Of a stretch of 64,000 nt of DNA, positions 175 through 50,992 are shown piece after piece; within the stretch, counting starts at the first letter, position 1, and each line of letters begins with the position of its first letter. The translations under genes and the position numbers were made by a program. The DNA is from Dromaius novaehollandiae. Taxonomy: Eukaryota > Chordata > Aves > Casuariiformes > Dromaiidae. The stretch spans positions 140,499,517 through 140,563,516 of the forward strand of contig NC_088099.1 in NCBI RefSeq assembly GCF_036370855.1. Direction: 5' to 3'. The notes below the pieces were generated by a model. That model was not told the origin of the DNA, ran no database searches, and saw only the letters and a program-made list of their open reading frames with translations.

Positions 175-1321
175 CTAAATTGAAAAGTTACCACAAACAC
201 AGATTAACAAAGTGAAAGAAGCTGGATATTTTGTGTTAAAAGAGAGCTGCACGATTATTGGGGGGGGGAGATACATATCAGAATAAAGGTTTGCTGAATA
301 TAAAACCTTATAAAAATATAAGTAAAATAAAACAGTGGCACTTACAAAAATGTAACTGTAATTCCCCTACTGAAATTAGGGGAACTTGGCAAAGCATTTT
401 AGGTAGATCTTACTATTTACTGTCTACTGTTCCTAAACTGTGCATCAGATTGATCATTAATGAGATATTAAACGGTGTAGTTGGCATGCGATATTGCAAA
501 AGTTTTTATCAGTAACTCCTGTTTATTGTCCTCGAGCAGAGCCAAAAATAATGCAAAGCTTCATTTAAGTGTTACTAAAGATTTCAATTCATAAGCTTTT
601 GCATTTCTCCTTACCAGCATACAGACCATTTTCTTTTCCTTGAAGCAGAGTGTATCAACTGCCAAAGCTATTTTGTGTTTTTACAAACTATTAGTTTGTA
701 ATTAAATGTTTCTCTGAAAGAAAAAAAAAATACTTTTCCACTGTGAGCACAGAAACGGAAAGAGAGAACAGCTAAACTATGGTCATTTTTCGAAAGTGAA
801 CAGGAAACTATAAAATTAAAAATGCAAGTTTCGTTAGATTTGTAAGATGTTTTCAACTGCAGTAAAACTTGGCGATCATTTATAGGACTGACAGAGACAA
901 GATGTGGCTTTTTAAACTGATTAGTGCTCATTCACTACAAAAGAAACGGGTGAGAAAAAAACCAAACACTCATGTAACACTTGAGACGCAAGCTTTAAAC
1001 CGGGCCGTGACGGAGGCGTGTCCATCCACAGCGCAGGTGTTCCCGAGGGCTCAGCTGACCCGGCTGCCGCACGTCTCCTCTCCCAGGACGGCCGCTTCAG
1101 GCCGAGCATCAGAAAACGGGGGCGCAGAGCAGCAAGAGGCGCCCAGCCGGGGGGAGGCAGGCGCCGCTGGGGGCGCGGGGGGAGGCAGGGAGGGAGGCAG
1201 GCGCAGATACCCACACGTGCTGGCAGTTCATCGTCCTCACGGGCGTTTTGAACACCTCCTGGCAGACGGGACAGTAAAAGTCATCCTCGCTGAAGCACGC
1301 CGCGGCGGCCTCCTCGGCCAT
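9..1321 (-). CDS. RNF138: RNF138, E3 ubiquitin ligase, first two coding exons (gene continues left of window)
   Basis: RNF138 is a nuclear RING-type E3 ubiquitin ligase with C2H2-like zinc fingers and a C-terminal UIM, known for promoting DNA end resection and for modulating Wnt and inflammatory signalling. Here join(complement(1215..1321), complement(9..174)) encodes residues 1-91. The protein opens MAEEAAAACFSEDDFYCPVC, and the RING finger follows: CPVC pair, CQH, then FCRKC and CPLCR from exon 2. The start codon at 1321-1319 lies in a CpG island and gives the family's usual short acidic leader before DDFYC. Exon 1 ends in phase 2 at CACGT before a GTGGGT donor; exon 2 is entered after AG with a single G, restoring the run HVFCRKCF. 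Exon 2 ends CCEKQ in phase 0 before GTAGAG. Zinc fingers and UIM lie outside the window. Identity is secure from the match to human RNF138 as remembered; transcript ends are not visible. Confidence 0.95.
175..1214 (-). other. RNF138: RNF138 intron 1
   Basis: AT-rich for most of its length, with a short poly-A/T tract near 720. The part next to exon 1 (about 1000-1214) belongs to the CpG island and has clustered G runs on the plus strand at 1149-1204. No further exon recognised. Confidence 0.85.
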
Positions 1322-2450
1322 GGCAACACGTCCGGGCCTCTCTGTGGGTGCGGGGACAGGGGAAAAAAAAAAGAACAAAAAAAAAAATGTCCCACCCTGG
1401 CGGCCCCTGCGGCGGCCTGGGGGCGCGGGGGCCGGAGAAGATGGCGGGTGGGCACCTGGCACCAGGTGGGAGGCCGGGCCGCGGGGCGGGCGGATGGGGG
1501 AGGGGGCCCGGCCTGCCCCGCCTCCCCCCGCCGCCCCGCGAGGCGCCGCCGCCGCCGCGCTCCCCTCCGCCCCTCTACCTGGCCGTGCCCGCGCAGAGAG
1601 CGCCTGGGGCGGGTGCCGCCGCCGCCGCCGCCGGGGCGCGTCCGAGCCGCTCAGGCGCAGCGGCAGCCGCGTGCCATGCTGCGCCCAGGCCCCGCCGCTC
1701 TCCCGGGGGGCAGGGGCGGGACCGGGGCCTGGGGCGGGACCGGGTTTCCATGGCGATTGCCTCCCGGCCCGGCGGGACTGTTATGACACCACTGGGCGGC
1801 CTCCCTCCCTCTGCCCGCCCGAGGGCCGCCCCGCCCGGCAACGGCGCCGGCCCGCTCCCTCCCCGCCCCCGCCGCGCTCCCGCGGGGCCTCGCCGGCGCC
1901 GCGCACCTCCCCTTCCGCAGCAGCCCCCGGCGACGGGGCCGCCGGGCCGGGCCGGGCCGGGCCGAGGTCTCCCCGCCCGGGGGGTCGCGGGGGAGGTGCA
2001 CGGTCGCCGCTCTCGGCGTGTGCCCGGCGCGGGCCGCGGCTGCGGCGGCGCCGTCGCCCTTGTGCCCGGCGCGGCCGCGCTGCCCCGCGGGCGCCGCGGC
2101 TCCGGCACCGCGTAAACGCGGCGGGGGCGAGGGGTCTAGTGAGCGGGGCCCCCGGAGCAACCCCCCCTTCCCGTCCCGCTGCGGTGCCGCTGCCCCCCGC
2201 GGCGAGGGGCGGTTCGAGGGGCGGCGGGGAACAGCGGCCTGCGCCGCGGGGCGCCGCCAGGGACCGCCGCAGTGCCCGCCCCGCGCTGGGCCGCCGCGGC
2301 CCGGGCACCCGGCGTCGCCTCCCGGCAGGGCGGCGCGACTGCACGCTGCCCTCCGCCGCCGCGGCGTGGGGTGGTTAAGGCTTCCCGGCCCCGAAACGTC
2401 TCCAGAGAGCGAAGCCAGCTCTTGGCGAGGTCTTGGCATCTGGCCTTCCA
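1000..2450. promoter_or_regulatory. CpG island and promoter region of RNF138
   Basis: A very GC- and CpG-dense block covers RNF138 exon 1 and about 1.1 kb upstream of it on the minus strand, flanked sharply by AT-rich DNA. No TATA box stands out, as is usual for CpG-island promoters. A YY1-like core (AAGATGGCGGG) lies at 1438-1448 on the plus strand, about 120 bp upstream of the start codon and opposite in orientation to RNF138. The long reading frames on both strands here are a result of few AT-rich stop codons, not genes. Confidence 0.85.
1215..1321 (-). CDS. RNF138: RNF138 coding exon 1
   Basis: 107 nt, codons 1-35 plus two bases. It holds the first half of the RING finger (CPVC and CQH). 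The donor reads GTGGGT just left of 1215. The reading frame continues open past the donor, but the extra residues do not resemble the family, so the splice is preferred. Confidence 0.93.
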
Positions 2451-19300: not shown

Positions 19301-20579
19301 TTCTTGAAGATAGTGAAAGTTCTGTGTAATTCAACAAGAAATCAACATTTTCAGACGTATTAAACAGCTGCATTTTAGACACACTTATGTGGATATTACA
19401 CAGATCAGGAGCACAGTATTTTCCATGAACTGCGACCTGGAATAAATAACGAAAACAAGCCTCCTCAGATGAGCAGCGGAGAAGGCACCGCTTCTTAGCT
19501 GGATTTCTGTACAGAAGGAAATCTGCAAAGTTGTTTATAATTTCGGAGACCAACAAGTGTCCTTCAGGAAACTGAAAAGCAGCACAGAAACCACACTAAC
19601 ATACCCTTTATCCTCTTTTTTCACAGAATTATTCCTAAACATCTGTGTAAGCCATATTTTTGGCTGCCGTTAACCCCAAAGGGGATGGCCACACTGGGAT
19701 AGATCACTAGCGGATACTTCACATTTGTTCTTGTGCTTTGCACCTGCATCGTTACTCTGTGCTGATTGCAAAGGGGCTCTTCATCCCCTGGTTGTGTCCG
19801 CACCAGGCTTGGATTAGGGGAATACCCAAGCTACAGCTCAAACTACACTTGTGATGACAATAACCTCTAGACCTGCTCATCTGGAATTTGAACCAAGAGA
19901 ACACATGCGCTCTAGAGTAACTGTTTTTACTGATTTTATAGCTGGCGCAGAATAACTAGCATTTTCCTAAAGCAGCTGTCCTGAAATTTCAAATATCCCT
20001 TTAGCTGGGATGAATCCTGACTTATTTCTAGGTACTTAACAGAAGTAGAGTGCAGGTGCCACAACTTCTCTTTACACTCGGTAGAGAAAGAAACACAGCT
20101 CACACAAGATAACTCAGACCCGAAGCAGGCTGACCCTCTGCAGCTGCTCCCCTGTGCCCGCTGAGTACAGAGGAAGCTTACGACAAGCGCTAACAGCGTT
20201 GCTGCTTTGTGCTTACGTATTTCTAGGTTATTTATGATAACAGATTACCCCATTTGAACGAGGAAATTTTTTTTAGTTAATTCGAAGTGGACCCCCCCCC
20301 CCATACACACACACACTTCTGCCTCGGGAGCTCACATGCTAACAGCACAGCCCTTCCCGGTCGGGGAAGCCCTGGCCATGGGCACCCCAAACTCCTCCCG
20401 CCCCCCGGCCACCTCCGGGCCACGCCGCCCCTACCCCCCCGCCGGGCGCAGCCCCCGCGCCGCACTCACACGTGGCCGCAGCGCGTCCGCACGGGGCGGT
20501 GCAGCACCTCCAGGCACACGGCGCACTCAAACGAGGCGGCCGCCGCCCGGCCCGCGCCGCCGCCCAGCGCCGAGCCCAT
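7239..20579 (-). CDS. RNF125: RNF125 (TRAC-1), E3 ubiquitin ligase; one expected exon not found
   Basis: RNF125 is a membrane-anchored RING E3 ligase known to ubiquitinate RIG-I, MDA5 and MAVS and so damp antiviral interferon signalling. Recognised exons are complement(20470..20579), complement(14477..14630), complement(12303..12397), complement(10760..10850) and complement(7239..7331). They join in frame to 180 residues plus stop. Order of parts: Gly2 for myristoylation (MGSALGG), RING finger (CAVC, CGH, FCHSC, CPYC), linker with the LSEMRAH block, a zinc finger (CPFC and HCLTYH), and a C-terminal UIM-like helix ending in [11 protein letters not shown]. Human RNF125 has 232 residues. About 17 are missing from the N-terminal leader, and about 35 correspond to a second zinc finger (FCPLC type) normally encoded between the fourth and last exons here; I could not locate that exon between 7332 and 10759. 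All visible splice sites are canonical and no stop interrupts the exons. Confidence 0.9.
7332..10759 (-). other. RNF125: RNF125 intron(s) between zinc-finger exon and UIM exon
   Basis: 3.4 kb where a roughly 108-nt exon for the second zinc finger is expected. I looked on the minus strand for an FCPLC-type start after AG and for a His-x4-His spacing and found neither. Otherwise AT-rich, with a small A-rich insertion-like repeat at 10072-10147 described separately. Confidence 0.6.
10072..10147. repeat. A-rich TAAAG repeat bounded by a 13-bp direct repeat
   Basis: AATTGGTTTGCAC occurs at 10072-10084 and again at 10135-10147. The 50 bases between are A-rich repeats of AAATAAAG/TAAAG type. The arrangement looks like a small insertion with target-site duplication or a slippage duplication inside an RNF125 intron. 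Confidence 0.8.
10760..10850 (-). CDS. RNF125: RNF125 coding exon 4 (zinc finger)
   Basis: 91 nt after a TTATTCCCAG acceptor, donor GTAATG, ending in phase 0. It encodes [20 protein letters not shown] followed by [10 protein letters not shown]: a CPFC pair, then the HC/H ligands of the first zinc finger and the conserved HRSER run. In human the next residues begin FCPLC from a separate exon. Confidence 0.95.
10851..12302 (-). other. RNF125: RNF125 intron 3
   Basis: About 1.45 kb of AT-rich sequence including an A-rich tract near 12170. No exon or element recognised. Confidence 0.75.
12303..12397 (-). CDS. RNF125: RNF125 coding exon 3
   Basis: 95 nt between a TTGCCTAG acceptor and a GTAGAC donor. 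The translation [20 protein letters not shown] followed by [11 protein letters not shown] matches the family linker closely. Ends two bases into an Arg codon completed by exon 4. Confidence 0.95.
12398..14476 (-). other. RNF125: RNF125 intron 2
   Basis: About 2.1 kb, AT-rich. No exon, RNA gene or mobile element recognised. Confidence 0.75.
14477..14630 (-). CDS. RNF125: RNF125 coding exon 2
   Basis: 154 nt after a pyrimidine-rich TCTATGTGTAG acceptor. It supplies the second half of the RING ([21 protein letters not shown]) and the following linker to NCTECETQ, ending in phase 0 before GTTTGC. The family pattern FCRSC reads FCHSC here; the changed residue is not a zinc ligand. Confidence 0.95.
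14631..20469 (-). other. RNF125: RNF125 intron 1
   Basis: About 5.8 kb without a recognised RNF125 exon. GC is a little higher at 15.64-16.02 kb and 17.56-18.46 kb. The latter contains a short inverted repeat, CCATCTGC (18315-18322) against GCAGATGG (18334-18341). A 118-codon minus-strand open frame at 19200-19556 has no recognised relative. Confidence 0.8.
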
Positions 20580-20760
20580 GGCGCCAGCGCCCAGCCCGCG
20601 GCACCGACACCGGCGCCGGCGCCGTCGGGAGCCCCGCGCCCGCCCCGCCCCGCCCCGCCCCGCCGCCGCGGGAGGCGCCGCCCGGCCCGGCCCGGCCCGG
20701 CCGCCTTGGCGCGGGGCTTGGGAGAGCGACCCCGAGGGCGGGGAACACAGCTGCAAATAA
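20370..20760. promoter_or_regulatory. CpG island and promoter of RNF125
   Basis: Dense CpG and GC boxes surround RNF125 exon 1. Tandem CGCCC pentamers (Sp1/KLF-type sites) lie at about 20640-20666, 60-90 bp upstream of the start codon, followed by CCCGG repeats at about 20684-20702. No TATA box is evident. The island is small compared with those of the two neighbours. Confidence 0.8.
20470..20579 (-). CDS. RNF125: RNF125 coding exon 1
   Basis: 110 nt, 36 codons plus two bases, donor GTGAGT. It starts MGS with Gly2 suited to N-myristoylation, although residue 6 is Gly rather than the preferred Ser/Thr found in human. The leader before the first RING cysteine pair is only 18 residues, about half the human length, and is Gly/Ala-rich. 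Ends CGHV in phase 2. Confidence 0.93.
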
Positions 20761-40000: not shown

Positions 40001-43000
40001 TACACAGGAACTAGATTGAAAGCTTTGCACTGTGTGCACCAGTTGTCCCCTTTGCCCTAACAGAGATGTAAAGGCCCAGACCTTAACCAGTACTTAATCT
40101 GCTGATCAACTTTTGCCTGTGAATTACTTACCGCTGTTAGTGTAACCAAAAATACTTGTGCAGTATGGCAGATTGTCATGGTAGAAAGTTCTGAGCACAA
40201 GTTTGAAGTGTTCTTTGCCATAACTTCTAGCATTTCTGACTTTAAAGAAGTAGCTTTCAGTTGTTGAAGGAGAAATGATTTTAAAAAATGGTGAGAGCGC
40301 AACTTTATTGTCTCAGCAAGTCTTGACTTAAAGCAAACAAACAACTTTGCCCCTTCCCCCCCCCCCCCCCCCAAAAAAGCAAATGCTCTACAAACTTTGT
40401 TTTTACTTTCTAATACAGGAAACTGAAAACACGTTAATGGATTTTATACCTTCACATTCATTCAGAAGGCAGTGGTTTTTCATAACTGTACTGTGTGCTA
40501 GTAACAATTGGTGGCTAATTAAGCAAATGTATATATTGTGAATGGAGTTTTTCTTTAATATAGCATCTCATTTTTTAACAAGTTTTCAAAAATACCATTT
40601 GAACTAATATTGTCTTGGAGGTGAGGAGAGGATTACTGTGTGTATTTCATTCAGCTAGCAAGTGTCATTTTAACACAGTCTTGGTTGCTCTTGAACCAAA
40701 GGGTTTTATATTTCTTACTTAAAAAATGTTTCTGACAACTGTATATTTCATTCTTCTAAGTCTTGAACTTAGATATCTGTTGGAAGTGTAATGGGAACAC
40801 TGTTTATTTGATGAACTTAGTTTGATGTTAGGGTTTCCTTGTGCGTATTTTAGCCAACAGTGGGGTCATTTTGAATATTCACTTTTAATGTGAAGGATAT
40901 TGTTCTATTTCACGTTACTCCTTCTGCTATTCCAGAAGAATAACTTCCAAAATAATCTTACAGATGCTTTAAGGAAATATGTAACAGTAGTAGGTTTTTA
41001 TTAGGGATTAAGGCAAGACCTTTGTGGGATACTGAGTATGTCCTTTATATTGGTCCTTAGCCAGTTCATTGCGTGCATGCCAGAAGTATCGTTTGCATCC
41101 TGTATGGCGGTGGGTAAGATCTTCATTATTCACGGCTATTACGTTTTAGGTGAGTCAGCAAGAATGGTCGTGATTTTATAGCTACACTGGTAAAGACAAA
41201 TGTCCTTTTCTTGCTTTTCTAAAAAGCTTGTTTTGCCCTTAGCTGTTTATTTCTGCCACTTCCTTTGCATTTGATCCTTTCAGTAATCATGTGCCTCTAG
41301 AATTGATCAGTCTAGTTAGCCAGTTGGATGAAAAAACTCTCTTCATTTTTGCCCTCCAGGATCAGTGTTTCTGCTGGATGTGCCAGGCTGGATCCACTAG
41401 GTTGAGCCTGCACAGTTGCCCTCCTTTGTGTTGAGCTCTCAATCCCGTGGCTCCAGTTCGAGGAACTGTTTGGCTAAAAATTCCTTCTGGATTTGGGGGT
41501 TATTTTTGGCAGAATCATCTCTATGAACTGCTTCACTGCATGCTACTGTGAATTTCAGTGCTAGCTAAAAGGTTAGAAGCGGTCACAAGCCTGAGGAGAG
41601 TAGTACTATGCCAGTGCCAGCTGCGTTAACAGCTAAGACTCTGGACACATGTAGTCTCATCTGCGTGGTTCTTACTTCTGAAAAGACTTGGGGAAAAGGT
41701 TTGAAACTCTCTCAGCTGGGAGACAGACTCAATTTCAGACCTTCATGGTGTAAATCTTGTGGTTAGCTGAAAAACTAGAAGAACAAGAATCTTCCTTCGT
41801 GCTGTGCTCTGTATACCTTACTTCAGTGTACAGTGGTTTGTGTGAATGCAAAGTGGTCTAGGGCTGTACTGTGGGGCATGTGGTCATGCAAAATAGCTTA
41901 GGTAGGCATACCCAGTATATCCTGCCTGGATTTATTGCCTGGCTTGATGGCGTTTGTGGTTTGAAATGGGGAAACTGATCTGAAAAATCATGGAGCAGAT
42001 CAGTGTTCTAACTTGTGTGATATCTTTTGGAGAACGGGGTTCTGAAAACAGTTCTTAACCTAAGATAATAATGTTTATAGTATTAAATAAAAGGAAATAT
42101 TCATTTGGATGAAGTAATCCTATGCTATCCCTGTCAAGTTTATTGACTGCTACATTATTACGTACTAGAACTTTCTGGCAGACTCTGTGGAACATATGTT
42201 AATGGTGACATCCATATAGCTATTACAAGCTTTTGGTGCAACTTGTGTGCTCCACAAGGAGGAGGGTGTGGAGCAATGTAATTGGGTATGGGTTTTATGA
42301 GTACTTTGCCACTCATTTTGTGTTGGATAGTCTTATGAATTAAGACCCTACTTTCACTTTCATCAGTTTGTCTAAATAAGCCTAATGTGGAAATTGTTAT
42401 GGCAAAAAATGAAGTAATTTCTCCTTCCCTCTGCTCACTCCATCTTTTTCATACTTAAGTATTATGGGTTGTATTCTAAAACTGATGATGGATAGGTTTA
42501 GCTAACTAAGTATATCTTTAAAAAACAGAAAAGCTAACTTACAACTGTTTTAACTCTTTCTATTATACTGTTTAACAAAACCTATCTTTTCTTTTTTAGC
42601 TCACATGAGAGATCCTAATAATCAGCTTCACATAATTAAAAATCTGAAGATTGCTGTCAACAACATTATTACTCACCCACCTCAGCCAGGTGCCATTCGA
42701 AAGCTTTTGAATGATGTTGTATCTGTCAGCCAGCCTGCTGAAGGACTAGTAGCTAATGTGATCACAGCTGGAGATTATGATCTCAACATTAGTGGTATGT
42801 AATGATACTGTATTTTTCTGTGGTTTAAACTAGAGCTTTTTATTACAAAATTGAGATAGCAACCTGTTACACCTGATCTAGATCACAAAAATATATCAGA
42901 ACTTACAATATTGGTACTAATGTATGGCTTTACTTCAAAGTCAGTCATCCTGTTTTTTTGGTTGTTGTCTTACTCATTGCTTAATGCATAGAGTTCATAA

Positions 43001-46000
43001 CGTGCTCATAAAAAGTGGTTTTGCCATGAAACTCAGTGCTTCATATTTCACTGTCACAATGGTTAGAATATTCTGAAGATGAAAAAGTATTTGCAATGTT
43101 TTATTCCTTGGAGATCTGGAAAAAAAAAGTTGAGATGTGATCTTGAGAGCTGAGAAGATTAAACTCCTCCCAATTAAGGCACTAATCCACTAAAGCCTTT
43201 GAGTACCTGCTTAATTTAAAGCATATATGAATTGTCCTATTTAAACACGGGTAACTCATTGTTCTTAGTTTGGCATGCTTTAAGGAATTTGGCAGTGCTA
43301 TAAGAAAAGATTGACAGTTTTTAATATATATTTGGTAAATTCATGAGGATTAGTCGTAGATGCAGTAGCATTTATATTTTTTTGGCTATATGAATATAAA
43401 AAAAATCAAAATTGTACATCTTCAATTCCTGATTTACAAGCCACATCTGCAAGCTGATGTGAAATTTTGATAGTAAAGGAAAAGACTTGAGAGACTTAGA
43501 ATTCTAATTTTTGAAAGCTGCAAGTGGAAATTACACCTGTCTTCACAGGTTCCATGCCCCTGCTTATCTGTGGAATTAGTTCTCTGCTTAATGGCTTTTT
43601 TAATGTGAAAAATTTGTGAAGAGGTAAAGTCAGCTTGAATTGTTGGGGATTTCCAGTTTCTAGGAGTCAGAAATCTTCTGATGAAGAGAATCTTCTGTAA
43701 TGTTTTAAACATAATCAACTTAGAAGTGATGTTGGGGGGTGGGGGAGATGACTTTATCGAGCCATTTCTTGTGTAGTGGTGCAAGCAAATAGCCCTCATT
43801 TTTGTCTTTCCTATTTGCTGCTTGAGCCCCAGATGTACTAGTTATCATTCGTGACTCTCTTCAGATCTCTACTGTCTCTCAGCAGTTAGGTTCTTATTTC
43901 CATTCACACTGGACATATGCTTTCTTGACAACAGGAGGAGAACAGTGTAATCTCTATTTAAGATTATACTTGGGGACAAAAATCATGTAACAATTTAGTA
44001 ACCCCTTCATAGGGCTTTAGCAGGAAGCAGCATGGTATTCTTGATGATGAAACTTGGATCCCATTACATTCTAGCAGGACATGACAAAGTCCTTACCTTG
44101 TCAGATAGGAAATTATATATATTTTTTTAAAAGTAGAAAACGAACTCTAAGAAACTTCCTTCCTCCCCTTTCCCCCCAACTTTGTTAGAGCATTTTATTG
44201 AAAACCTGTGAAGCACTCATTCCTGATCAGATTTTTTTTAATGGAAATGTGAAATGCACAAATCTCTAATTTGCTGCTTTTCTTGTGGTGAATTAGTTTT
44301 CTATGATAGCAATAGTAAAGCCTATTTTCTTGATCTTTAATGATGATCAAGTGCAATATGTTTTCAAGGAAGATATCAACAGACTGTGTAAGAATGATAT
44401 GTGAGTGTCCCCTTTCGTGGGATCATGATCCTGCTTATTTAAGAAAAGTTTTGGAACTGCTGTGATAAGTTGATTTAACAGTTTGTAATCCTTCTTTGTT
44501 ACACTTTAATAGTCTCATTTGTAGTTCCATAATAATGCTGTACTGATAAGACTTGGATGGTTGCTGAGAGGGTGCTCGTATTCAGCTGTGCATGTCTTCC
44601 CTCTCCCATGTGCTGGCAAATGTGGAGAGTGAGTAAAAGTGATCCCACTGAAGACTTTTTTTTTTTTTTTTTTTCTTCTTCCTTCCTCTATTGCATCAGT
44701 TTTCAGCTGAATGGCTTCCTTGGTCCTGCTAATTCAAGGCTGCATGATGCTAATGCTGACATACAGAAATGCAGGACCATGACAGGGCTAAGGAGAAAGT
44801 TGGGGCAGCCACTTTCAGCAGCTAACCTCTTCAGTTACTTTACCTGTAGTGCTGCAGGCTGAGAAGTGTCCGAAATTAGTGGCTTATCTTTATTGTCTTT
44901 TCCAACTAGAAAAATAGAAATATATCTAAACATAACTCTCCAATTCTCTACAGCTTTATAGATTTCCATTGTTATTAACGCCAAAATTTGGGCTGAACTA
45001 GAAACAAATACTGAACTCTAAAGTACACTGTAAAATGTTGAGCCTGAAACATTTATAACTGAGGTTATCTGGATTAAAATGTCTTCAGTCCCTGACGGGC
45101 CTGAATATGGTACAGACTTCTACTTAATGTTACCAAAGCATAAAAGGCAATAGTGTGTTTGAACCTGAGCCTCTTTTAGTATAATAATACCATGTTTTTT
45201 CTATCAGATCGCTCAGTTAAAGCTAGTGTTCCTTGGTACAGTAATTGGAAAGAGACACTGATGGAACTGAACACATCTACGTTTTATTCAGGTATTTTTT
45301 GTGGTTGGTGCGGATTTGCCAAATTGCCCTTTATCCCTTTTCCGTGTGCCTCATCCACCTTTCTTTACCATCTGCTGCAACTGTTTAGCACTTTTCTTGG
45401 CATAGATGTGTGTTCCTCCATTTTTTCCCCCCAAATAAAAAAAAAACCTGTTGGTGGTGGTTGTTTAATTTTCTCTTATTCACAGTTCTAATCCTGTTAA
45501 CCTAAGTCATTTGGTCTTTCCATAAAGTCCAATAAGTGCAGAGTGGGGAAAAGCTGATTCTGATGCTGTAAAAGTGCCATCTTGTTTGATCCTGTAAGAA
45601 CTGTATACTGTCACTGTTCTGTATTCCAAATACAAATACTTCTGCTTCTCTTTAGAGTTTTCTTCTGTGTGGATAGTAGTGTTCAGTTTGAAACTAAAAT
45701 GTAACTGTATTTACATGTCTCTGCCTTACTGATATTTTCTGGATTATGACTTTCTTCAAAACAAGGAGTTTTATAATGCATTTTTGTCTAATTTCTATTA
45801 GACCTATTGCTGCCAAAAATGCATTGGTTGTTGACCTCTCGGTTTACAGTGAAGCTTTATGTTGTGGTCTATAAAATAGCTAGATCGTGATTTTTTTTTT
45901 TTTTTTTTTTTCAGTTTTAAATATTAACAAAGTTTATGCCTTCAGGTAGTCATAGCTATCCTTTCAATAGTGTCTGTTCAAATGCTGCTAAATGTTTGTC

Positions 46001-49000
46001 TTTTCTAAATGTGCTAAATACTGATACCTGTGAAATTGGTTTTGCTCAGTAAAATAATGAGGAAAGTACAAAACCTAACGAAGTAGATTTCTCATACAGA
46101 AGCTGTCTTGTACAAATAGAACTTATCTGTATTTTTTTTTCTTAATGGTTTCTGAACACATTAACAAGTTTATGTGAACTTGAGCTCCACTCATTTAGCG
46201 TACTGTATGTGTACTGGAGAAACATAAAACATACAGCTCTGATGCTTTGCACTGTTATAACACATGATGCATAACACTACGTTCTTGAAAATGTTGGCAG
46301 AAATACTGTTTGCTTTGAATAAGGTGTGTGTGTATTTTTGCAAGTATCTAATATAGATGATTATGGCCCTGTAAATGTGCTTGGGTGAGTAGTGTTGCAG
46401 TATGCTGGACTCTGTAGAGGAGAATACGGTTGCTTTTGTAGCCTCTTCCTAGTTTCTTGCTAGGCTGAATGAGAAATGAAACAGATAGGCATAGTACAAC
46501 CCTGTTTGTGGATCTGTCAAGTTGTTCAGCTTTTTTGCTGTGGTTCAACTGTATAATAATAGGAATGGAAAACAAATTGGAGCTTGAAACTAAAACATAA
46601 TAATAATTAATAGTTTAATAATGCTTGCTTTTGAACCTGACTACAGGGCTTCTTTATACTTGTGAAATACACACTAGAGTCATTTTTTTTCACGGTTTGT
46701 TTTTAATAACAAGCTGTGTTTTCTTTGATGTAAGTAATTCCACTATTTACATATTGGACTTGGTAAACGCAAGTGCATTTTTTTACCATAGATGAGTGCT
46801 CTAACCAGCTGATCTTTGAACATAGTTGCAAGCTAGAAATTTGCCTCTTAGTGATGTTTTTAATCACTGAAATATACTGGCAGATTGAGTTCAGTTGTAA
46901 AATGTGAGGATATTTGACTTAAATGTGTGGATGAAGTTGGTGTAAGATGGTCTGACAATGTAAGACTAAACAAAATAGATCAACTTTAATGCATTAGAAG
47001 ATATTCTCCCAAAGCCCTTTTTTTTTTGGGGGGGGGGGGGGCAAGTTGACAAAGCTTTAGGGAATTCTTAGGCAACTTAAATCAAGGAATGCATTTCTTT
47101 TGTCTTGGGCACTATAAGGAAAACAAATGTCTTGAGGGTTTTTTATTAATGCATTTTTTTCCTTGCCAGTTATTCTTTTAAAGTTTGCATGTGACTTTTT
47201 TCTGGTTTTCAGCTTACTGTGCAGTGTGGAATCAGGTTATTAGAAACAAACTGATTTATTTTGCCTTGTGTTTTTTTTGTACTGAGGTGAAGGAATTGCA
47301 GAATTGTGATGGCATAGAACAGTTCTTGAAAGGAGAAATAATATTTCATTTCTAGACTGATAGTTGGAGTGGAAAGAAATGGATAAGATTTTTAGGTTCA
47401 GAGGCTCTTCAGATGTCCCAGATATACTTGGTGTCTCTGTAGATCTTGCTTCGATACTCTGAAATAATTGACTCCCTTCTGCAAAAGGGCATTTTGAACA
47501 TGGCAGGGTATCCTTGTAAGGATTTAGTGGCACAACTCAGACCTGAGCTTTTTAGCATTTGTGTGTGGTGCGGTGTGTGTTGGTGTATGTTTATGGGTTA
47601 AGGGATGAAGGAGGAAGGTGACTACTGGCAAGTCACAACACTTGCAAAATGCTCTTGGCAAAACTGACAGGATAGTGATTTGGTAGTCCTTAGTTCCTCT
47701 GCATACTCCAAAATGAATTTAGCATCTCAGTCAGTTGTTGCAACCCTAGATGAGGTGAGTACAATGTTTGTGTTCAGAGGGCTGAAGTAGTAGTTACTCT
47801 GGTGTATATATTCAGTATAGGCTGACTATATGTGAGCTTAAAATACTGAAGGAGTTGATGCTTAAGATATTGTTATTCAGTTTCACGGGATTAATTTTAA
47901 AGTATCTTTCAATATCTCCCACCTGTATGTTTTCAGACTCTGTTTTCTAGAAGCTTTTCCTTAGACTGTTTTCCCTCTTCCCTCCTGCCTGGTTCCTGCA
48001 AAGCTTGTCAGAGTTTGCAAGTCTCTCTTACAGATGCAGTCTTTTGTAATTCCTTTATTTGAATGAATAAACAGAAGCTTGGCTACATGAGTAAATTTGG
48101 TCGTATCTTATTGTGTATTTCAGCTACTACTCCTTGGTTTGAGTCTTACAGAGAGAGCTTTCTTCAGTCCATGCCTGCATCAGATCACGAATTCTTAAAC
48201 CACTATGTTGCATGTATCCTTTGAGTGTTAGTCGTCTTTAGTGAAGACTGTTACAGCTAGCTGCAGAAATGTAATACAAGAGACTACAATTTTAGAATAA
48301 CTTTCTGCCAATGTGCTATGAAATATCTCTTAATAGATCTAACTATTCAGACTAATTGTGTAAGGGATTTCTTTGTAGCTGGAACCTTAAAGGGTGGGGG
48401 AGAGGAATACATACTTGTTTATACCTCAAACTGAACTATAACCTAATACCTGTAAACTTATCCTAGAATGTTTTCTACTGTGGCTCTTTAGGTACCTGTT
48501 GATTGTCTTCAGTGTATAGCAGAGGATTTTGTGCTGGAATGTGGTTGCAGCTCTTTATTAGCTTTTCCAGCACTTGAGAGGTGGGGAAGTGTTGAAAGGT
48601 TGTCTAAAATAATTAGAAGCTAGTCCAGAAAGGCTGTAAAGATATTTAAATACTTTTGGAGTAACTTTTTTGAGCAAAAGTTAAGCCTGATTTATCAACC
48701 CTTGGGGGAGGCGGGGAGTATGCTGTTTCATAATGTAGTTGGTGTTGACTTTACAGTAAAATTAATGCTGCAGGTTTCATAATGCTTACTCTGTTCCTAA
48801 CTCTGAACTGTACTTTATCATTCAGTATGGTGGCACAGCTATGTTTGAAATAACAATTTGTGCAGAATTAATTTGGCAAAATACTGATTCTGGCTCTTGA
48901 CTACTAAATTGTAGTAAGATTTTAAAATAAGACTTGCTTTTGGCTTCTCTAATTCAATGACTTTGGTTTGGTGAATAGAAGTAGCAAAGCAGAATTCCTT

Positions 49001-50992
49001 ATTCATGATCAGAGGCACACTGAACATACCTGCTTTTTAGTCAGATGCTGACATATTTCTTAATACTGGCTGTTAATGTGCTTGGTCAGGTAAAGCCTTA
49101 AAAAGAAAGTAATAGTTCTTTGAAAGTTAGCAAGTAAAATACATTGGGAAGGAACTTCAGTTATACTTGTGTAAACAGAAGTTTTACCTGTGAACAGATG
49201 ATCTTGATCTAAAATACCAAATGGACTACCAGCTTGAATTCCATGTCAAAACTGGAGAAAGCTCATGTTTCATCTCATGACACGGATACTAGTTAACTGA
49301 CCCTCTAAAAGCTTTAAAACATGGGTGTTTTTTGTGTTTCTTTTTTCCTCTCTCTCCCCTTAATTTGACCCAGGCCAAACTTTAGTTGCACAGGCTTTAT
49401 CCTGCTGTGTTTTACAGGCTTAAACAAGGGACATTTCTTGTTTTTACTGTATGATCACTGGCTGTTTCTGGTTCTTCTGATAAATGTCCTTAACATGAGT
49501 TTAGGTATGCTCGTAGTTTCTTCTAGTGAACCGGAGCCTGTGGAACAATTTCTGAAGCTGTCTCAAGAACAACATCGAATTCAGCATAGTAGTGAATATT
49601 TATATCCAAAATGGTTTATACCAAACACACTCAAATATTATGTATTGCTGCATGATGTAAGCACAGGAGAAGAGCAGAAGTGAGTTTTTGGTTTTCAGTG
49701 AACTTTTTTGACCAAAATGCATGTGTTATAAATTACTGTTAATATATTTATGTTGTGAGTTTAATCTTAACCCGTTTGCTGACTATAATTAAGGCAGATT
49801 TCCTTAAATAGTATTTCTAGATCAAATTCTTGTGTTCATATAAAATAAGCAGTAAGTTACAGCTTTTTGAGTTAATGATTTCTATGCCATCTCACTGAAC
49901 TAATTTCTTTTAGGAGAGTCTGTTTTACTCTTATGTAAAGGACTGATTAAAAAAAAAAAAAAGAACTTTTCTTTTAACCCCTGTGGATAATTGTCTAAAA
50001 TAGCTTGTTGCAGTACAGATTTAGAATTGGTATTATTGATAAGGCAGGGTAAATATTTTAATTTTTCAGAGCTGACTCCATTTATGAAGAGATGAAGCAG
50101 AGATATGGAACTCAGGGCTGCTATTTGCTGAAAATAAATTCACGGGTGTCTAACAGAGGAACAGATGAACAGATACCAGATCCTTGGAGTCAGTACCTTC
50201 AGAAAAACAGTATCCAGAACCAGGTATTACAGTATTCCTAAAACAATTTGTGCATGTTGATGCCTATTTTTGTTGCATTAACTTTTTCCTTAGTATTATG
50301 TATTTTTCTATGGATTATGATGAAGTAGTAAGGATACTTCAAACACTGTTTTACAGGATTCACTTTTTTTAACCTGATTTTCTGTATGGGCACAAGATGG
50401 GTCCTTATTCAAAGGACTATTATATATGCCACTTAAACTGATAGTAAAAAGCACTGAAATAATGCTTTCTGAAAATATTCCATTGGCACTAAGGTCTTGA
50501 CCTCCTGAAGTTGTTGCCCTGGTCAGTGCATATAAAGCAGAAGTGTCCTTTTCATAGTAAGCTTTTACCTTACTTTTGGTTAACTTTCTTCACTTTCAAA
50601 ACTGCTTTTCCAGGTCTCCTGTAGTTCACTAAGCAGCATAGTTGTGGGGTGTGTGTGTGTGTGGCTTGTTTTTTTCTTTTTTCTTTTTTTCTTTTCTTTT
50701 TTTTTTAAAAAACTTCCCACAATGTGATCTGATAGTCTGTTATCTGCCAAGGTGACAAATCAAAATATATGTTACAGTATTTAGTTCTGTTTGCCATTAA
50801 CATTGTAAATGGGCTTCAAGGCTAAACAGATTAATTGAATCTGCTTTTGACTGTCCTACAACTTTAACTGTATCTGTGGAATCAGTCCATCATCAAATCT
50901 AGCTGGCACTGAAAGGTCAAAGCCACTCCAATTCTTTATGCTGTTTGGAGGACCAAGAAGTTACGTTCCACCATAAGCTATTCCTGAGATTT

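Follow-up and report, generated by a model that had tools for sequence, protein, structure and literature searches.

Does intron 2 of TRAPPC8 hold a second copy of exon 3, and could such a copy be used in the mRNA? The question arises from a preliminary description of the window, the whole 64-kb stretch of Dromaius novaehollandiae DNA analyzed here, in which an exon-like segment of intron 2 was taken for an old tandem duplicate of exon 3 that serves as an alternative or mutually exclusive exon. The peptide encoded by the joined exons 2–4 scores 136.2 bits against the Pfam profile PF12739 (TRAPPC-Trs85; cut-off 26.7), confirming that the gene is TRAPPC8/Trs85. The features of the locus are collected in Table 1. 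Elsewhere in the window, two GC-rich open frames on the minus strand, 1109-1462 (-) and 20466-20756 (-), carry RING-finger-like cysteine motifs. From the mammalian gene order, we take them to be probable first exons of RNF138 and RNF125.

Table 1. Positions of TRAPPC8 exons, the candidate cassette and associated splicing signals in the window
Feature	Position	Strand	Basis
TRAPPC8 exon 2	42600..42794	+	sequence, Pfam PF12739
Cassette pyrimidine tract and AG acceptor, TTTTTTCTATCAG, U2-like score 3.26	45195..45207	+	
Candidate cassette exon, 84 nt, phase 1-1, peptide DRSVKASVPWYSNWKETLMELNTSTFYS	45208..45291	+	sequence, translation
45-nt core resembling the first 15 codons of exon 3, 24/45 bases, BLOSUM62 score 41	45222..45266	+	
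Cassette donor GTATTTTTTG, U2-like score 1.47	45292..45301	+	
TRAPPC8 exon 3, presumed parent, 90 nt, phase 1-1	48124..48213	+	sequence, Pfam PF12739
U12-type donor of intron 3, GTATCCTTT, poor as U2 donor (-3.43)	48214..48222	+	
U12-type branch-point sequence TCCTTAAC, intron 3, 10 nt upstream of exon 4	49487..49494	+	
TRAPPC8 exon 4	49505..49679	+	sequence, Pfam PF12739

The candidate cassette is open in the frame dictated by exon 2 and encodes 28 residues. It is the sole strict pseudo-exon of intron 2 with phase 1 at both ends. Equal phase at the ends, an open frame and the splice-site letters give it the form of a cassette exon. The position, length, AG acceptor, GT donor, phase and open frame had all been described correctly. 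Scored with vertebrate U2 matrices that are approximate, the cassette acceptor falls between those of exon 2 (5.04) and exon 3 (1.47), and the cassette donor falls below those of exon 4 (3.92) and exon 2 (2.49). By this approximate measure the donor is a moderate U2-type site. The acceptor, which had been called strong, does carry its AG and is a good U2-type site, but not an outstanding one. The open frame around the cassette spans 103 codons (45180-45488) and extends past both splice sites. Intron 2 contains another stop-free frame of 108 codons (44536-44859), which is non-coding and scores below 36 against exon 3. Openness is therefore weak evidence for the cassette.

The resemblance between the cassette and exon 3, whose peptide is ATTPWFESYRESFLQSMPASDHEFLNHYVA, is confined to a core of 15 residues. 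The preliminary description had pointed to this peptide resemblance, and it holds, with a BLOSUM62 score of 41. The matching bases are distributed as 9, 7, and 8 of 15 over the three codon positions. The two exons are offset at their 5′ ends. Similarity begins 14–15 nt (5 codons) inside the cassette, where an AG at 45221-45222 matches the place of the exon 3 acceptor AG; the acceptor of the cassette itself is found 15 nt farther upstream. At the other end, nothing in the cassette corresponds to the 7 C-terminal residues of exon 3. When the DNA of the two regions is aligned with 150-nt flanks, the best match falls elsewhere, and alignment of exon with exon yields just 12/15 bases.

The donor letters of the putative tandem pair correspond. 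The cassette donor GTATTTTTTG and the exon 3 donor GTATCCTTTG are equal at 8 of 10 letters, GT included. Between 36 and 64 kb, 110 donors have a U2 score at least as high as that of the cassette; among them, only the cassette donor shares at least 8 of 10 letters with the exon 3 donor, GT included. Intron 2 and its surroundings contain 354 GT dinucleotides, 5 of which agree with the exon 3 donor at 8 letters. This likeness stands apart from the peptide evidence and weakly supports the idea that the donor was carried along in a duplication.

A serious rival, although an unlikely one in our judgment, is that the cassette is a pseudo-exon, intronic sequence bounded by splice-like ends, and that its peptide resembles exon 3 by chance. 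A bare peptide match of this kind does occur accidentally: when intron 2 was shuffled 4000 times with dinucleotides preserved, 11 of the resulting sequences scored at least 41 against exon 3 (0 of 400 in another run). The cassette joins the match to an open, spliceable phase-1 segment, and this combination appears in 1 of 20,000 intron 2 shuffles when at least weak splice sites are taken as spliceable. Above-chance similarity to a neighboring exon, as befits a tandemly duplicated exon, is thus found in the combined form. A set of 600 shuffles reaches at most 25 for segments with sites as good as those of the cassette and 32 for segments with weaker sites. The figure of 1 in 20,000 is somewhat optimistic because pseudo-exons are more frequent in real sequence than in shuffled introns, a point in favor of the chance reading. 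Pseudo-exons number 3.6 per real chunk of chromosome and 9 in intron 2, three of which are forms of the cassette, versus 2.1 per shuffle.

Real sequence from the same chromosome gives a top score of 34, and of 27 inside pseudo-exons, over 78 chunks. These derive from 80 chunks of 5.0-5.3 kb, taken at 20 places on both strands with neighbors overlapping by 329 bases, of which 2 containing N were dropped. A six-frame scan of the 64-kb window against the exon 3 peptide finds scores of at least 36 only in the cassette and in exon 3 itself. Against exon 2, no part of intron 2 scores above 27. The cassette also ranks first, with 41 and a runner-up at 35, among 21 comparisons of TRAPPC8 introns with their flanking exons, a set in which exon ends are approximate except for exons 2–4 and the exon expected between E5 and E7 is not placed. 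After 21 comparisons, the bare peptide match is marginal, but this does not apply to the match taken together with splice sites and phase. The chance reading would also account for a DNA identity of just 24/45, for cassette ends that do not correspond with those of exon 3 and for a frame open well past both ends, and the candidate was chosen after inspection of much sequence. The similarity of the two donors counts against it.

The profile PF12739 also speaks against a chance resemblance, in a swap test that shares information with the peptide match and is not independent of it. With the cassette swapped into the exon 3 slot, the protein scores 92.7 bits. Seven shuffles of the cassette in the same slot score 78.6–85.2 bits, an empty slot 77.3 and the real exon 3 136.2. 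With the cassette inserted at its natural site before exon 3, the score is 137.0 bits, compared with 132.7–134.4 bits for three shuffled inserts at that site and 121.1–127.4 bits for the cassette placed at four other sites. The scores indicate that the cassette resembles the family at the exon 3 position and that the insertion site tolerates extra residues. The longer frame around the cassette has no Pfam match. Shuffles, swap test and donor resemblance together support the old tandem duplication of exon 3 that had been proposed.

The intron downstream of exon 3 has a character that the preliminary description overlooked. U12-type introns have the donor consensus RTATCCTTT and a TTCCTTAAC-like branch site near the acceptor. 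Consensus donor and branch strings of this type stand at the two ends of TRAPPC8 intron 3 (48214-49504). By chance, 1.7 copies of the donor string and 2.8 copies of the branch string are expected per 64 kb on both strands. The acceptor of exon 4, like the intron 3 donor, is poor as a U2 site (-6.84). Judged by these letters, intron 3 is most likely a U12-type intron processed by the minor spliceosome. A literature search returned no paper joining TRAPPC8 with the term "minor spliceosome".

With a probable U12-type acceptor ahead of exon 4, the cassette might be thought to substitute for exon 3, the two forming a mutually exclusive pair as in MAPK8/9. The layout is JNK-like, with alternative exons right upstream of a U12 acceptor, an arrangement that accompanies mutual exclusion in MAPK8/9 (PMC8329584, PMC3584512). 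The lengths are nearly equal (84 versus 90 nt), the phases are equal and the frame is kept on a swap. A JNK-type pair needs a U12 donor on both exons, however, and by consensus this holds for exon 3 (GTATCCTTT) but not for the cassette (GTATTTTTT). In the cassette donor, TT replaces the two C of the U12 consensus and CAG precedes, so that it reads as U2-type. U2 and U12 splice sites are described as generally incompatible (PMC3584512). Joining of the cassette to exon 4 is thus unlikely, because a U2 donor would face a U12 acceptor. One skipping event that joins a U2 donor to a U12 acceptor is reported under failure of the minor spliceosome (PMC8329584). In addition, swapping lowers the profile score of the protein from 136.2 to 92.7 bits, a loss of 43.5. 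Mutual exclusion is therefore improbable. Of the alternative or mutually exclusive exon proposed at the outset, what stands is a simple cassette spliced in the order exon 2, cassette, exon 3; the either-or part is disfavored by the meeting of an apparent U2 donor with an apparent U12 acceptor.

A dead duplicate, that is, a genuine old copy of exon 3 that has lost its splicing, would agree with the diverged DNA, the shifted ends and the moderate donor but is less probable still, as frame, phase and both splice sites are intact and the protein similarity exceeds that predicted under neutral decay. In a simulation of neutral copies carrying an equal number of changes, 4 of 10,170 stop-free copies reach a score of 41; these remained from 20,000 copies drawn after those containing stops were dropped. 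If the cassette and exon 3 are homologous, the simulation points to selection at the protein level, a reading conditional on the cassette having been picked by its peptide likeness.

Several other origins find no support. An interspersed repeat is not indicated, as the cassette matches only itself in the 1.47-Gb assembly in a search that skips very common words. No direct-repeat family covers the cassette among the best 20 of 23, and, apart from the cassette itself, the strongest blastn hit in the window that overlaps it has an E value of 0.32. An RNA gene is not suggested either, with no Rfam match at the gathering score in the window. A TRAPPC8 retrocopy recording the spliced cassette was sought with the 181-residue form containing the insert, which matched four places in its own genome, all of them in TRAPPC8 (exons 2, 3, and 4 and the cassette). 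Shortly 3′ of the cassette, an AATAAA at 45434 is followed by a GT-rich stretch (45434-45466), a poly(A)-like arrangement. Use of the cassette as an alternative last exon is rejected, since AATAAA precedes the stop of the frame, which runs to 45488, and the mRNA would have no stop. Within about 300 nt of the cassette, the splicing-factor motif GCATG is absent, while YCAY and U-runs are present. Searches for relatives gave 42 pattern matches among genome contigs with exons 2–4 without the cassette as query, and 4 among viral contigs with a query including it; none was confirmed in either set.

On balance, we consider it probable from these sequence features that the cassette is an old duplicate of exon 3, still coding and usable as an added 28-residue cassette rather than as one of a mutually exclusive pair. 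In this model, an ancient tandem duplication would have placed a copy of exon 3, probably along with its splice sites, in intron 2, and this upstream copy would have remained coding. The original layout may have been like that of the JNK genes, with two exons bearing U2 acceptors and U12 donors ahead of a U12 acceptor. The donor of the copy would later have shifted to the U2 type; point changes can convert U12 donors to U2 donors (PMC3584512). In its present form the copy could then be spliced to exons 2 and 3, whereas splicing to exon 4 would hardly be possible.

Inclusion of the cassette would lengthen the N-terminal Trs85-like region by 28 residues, placed immediately ahead of the PWF motif that exon 3 encodes. 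Searches of solved structures gave no matching chain, either for exons 2–4 at E values up to 1 or for the cassette at values up to 10, and the position of the insert within the fold is therefore judged from the Pfam profile and a paper on Trs85 (PMC8204860). The N-terminal portion of yeast Trs85 is described there as a GTPase-like fold with insertions, and the insert probably sits in a loop whose length varies within the family. TRAPPIII is a Rab1 activator in secretion and autophagy (PMC8204860). If spliced, the cassette would give two forms of the subunit that sets TRAPPIII apart. The fuller scenario is more tentative. It holds that an unrecognized, conserved exon 3 duplicate beside a U12-type intron passed from a JNK-type pair to an additive cassette through a U12-to-U2 donor change, and that two TRAPPIII forms differ beside the exon 3 segment of the N-terminal Trs85-like domain. 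We regard it as unlikely to be right in its entirety. If true, it would be a natural case of a minor-to-major splice-site change turning an either-or exon into an added exon.

Searches of the literature on TRAPPC8 splicing, isoforms, minor introns, chicken, and TRAPPIII/Trs85 structure, covering mostly listings and the openings of abstracts, found no description of the exon, and the peptide string PWYSNWKET had no match in a literature search. The cassette would be a further example of tandem exon duplication, a known kind, in an unusual minor-intron setting, and three known systems invite comparison. Human clusters of mutually exclusive exons likewise consist of adjacent exons with similar peptides, and five such clusters show U2/U12 incompatibility (PMC5740500); TRAPPC8 is absent from the main text of that paper. 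In TMEM87A/B, exons 11/11a also include an alternative exon adjoining a U12-type intron, and in Tmem87b each of the two measures 72 bp (PMC6717393). However, exon 11a lies within the minor intron (PMC6717393), whereas the TRAPPC8 candidate lies in the preceding intron. In MAPK8/MAPK9 (JNK), the alternative exons 6a/6b stand in tandem close before a U12-type acceptor and carry U2 acceptors themselves (PMC8329584), an arrangement shared with TRAPPC8. Each of the JNK exons has a U12 donor, and the two exclude each other, whereas the donor of the TRAPPC8 cassette looks U2-type, which would permit addition of the cassette to exon 3.
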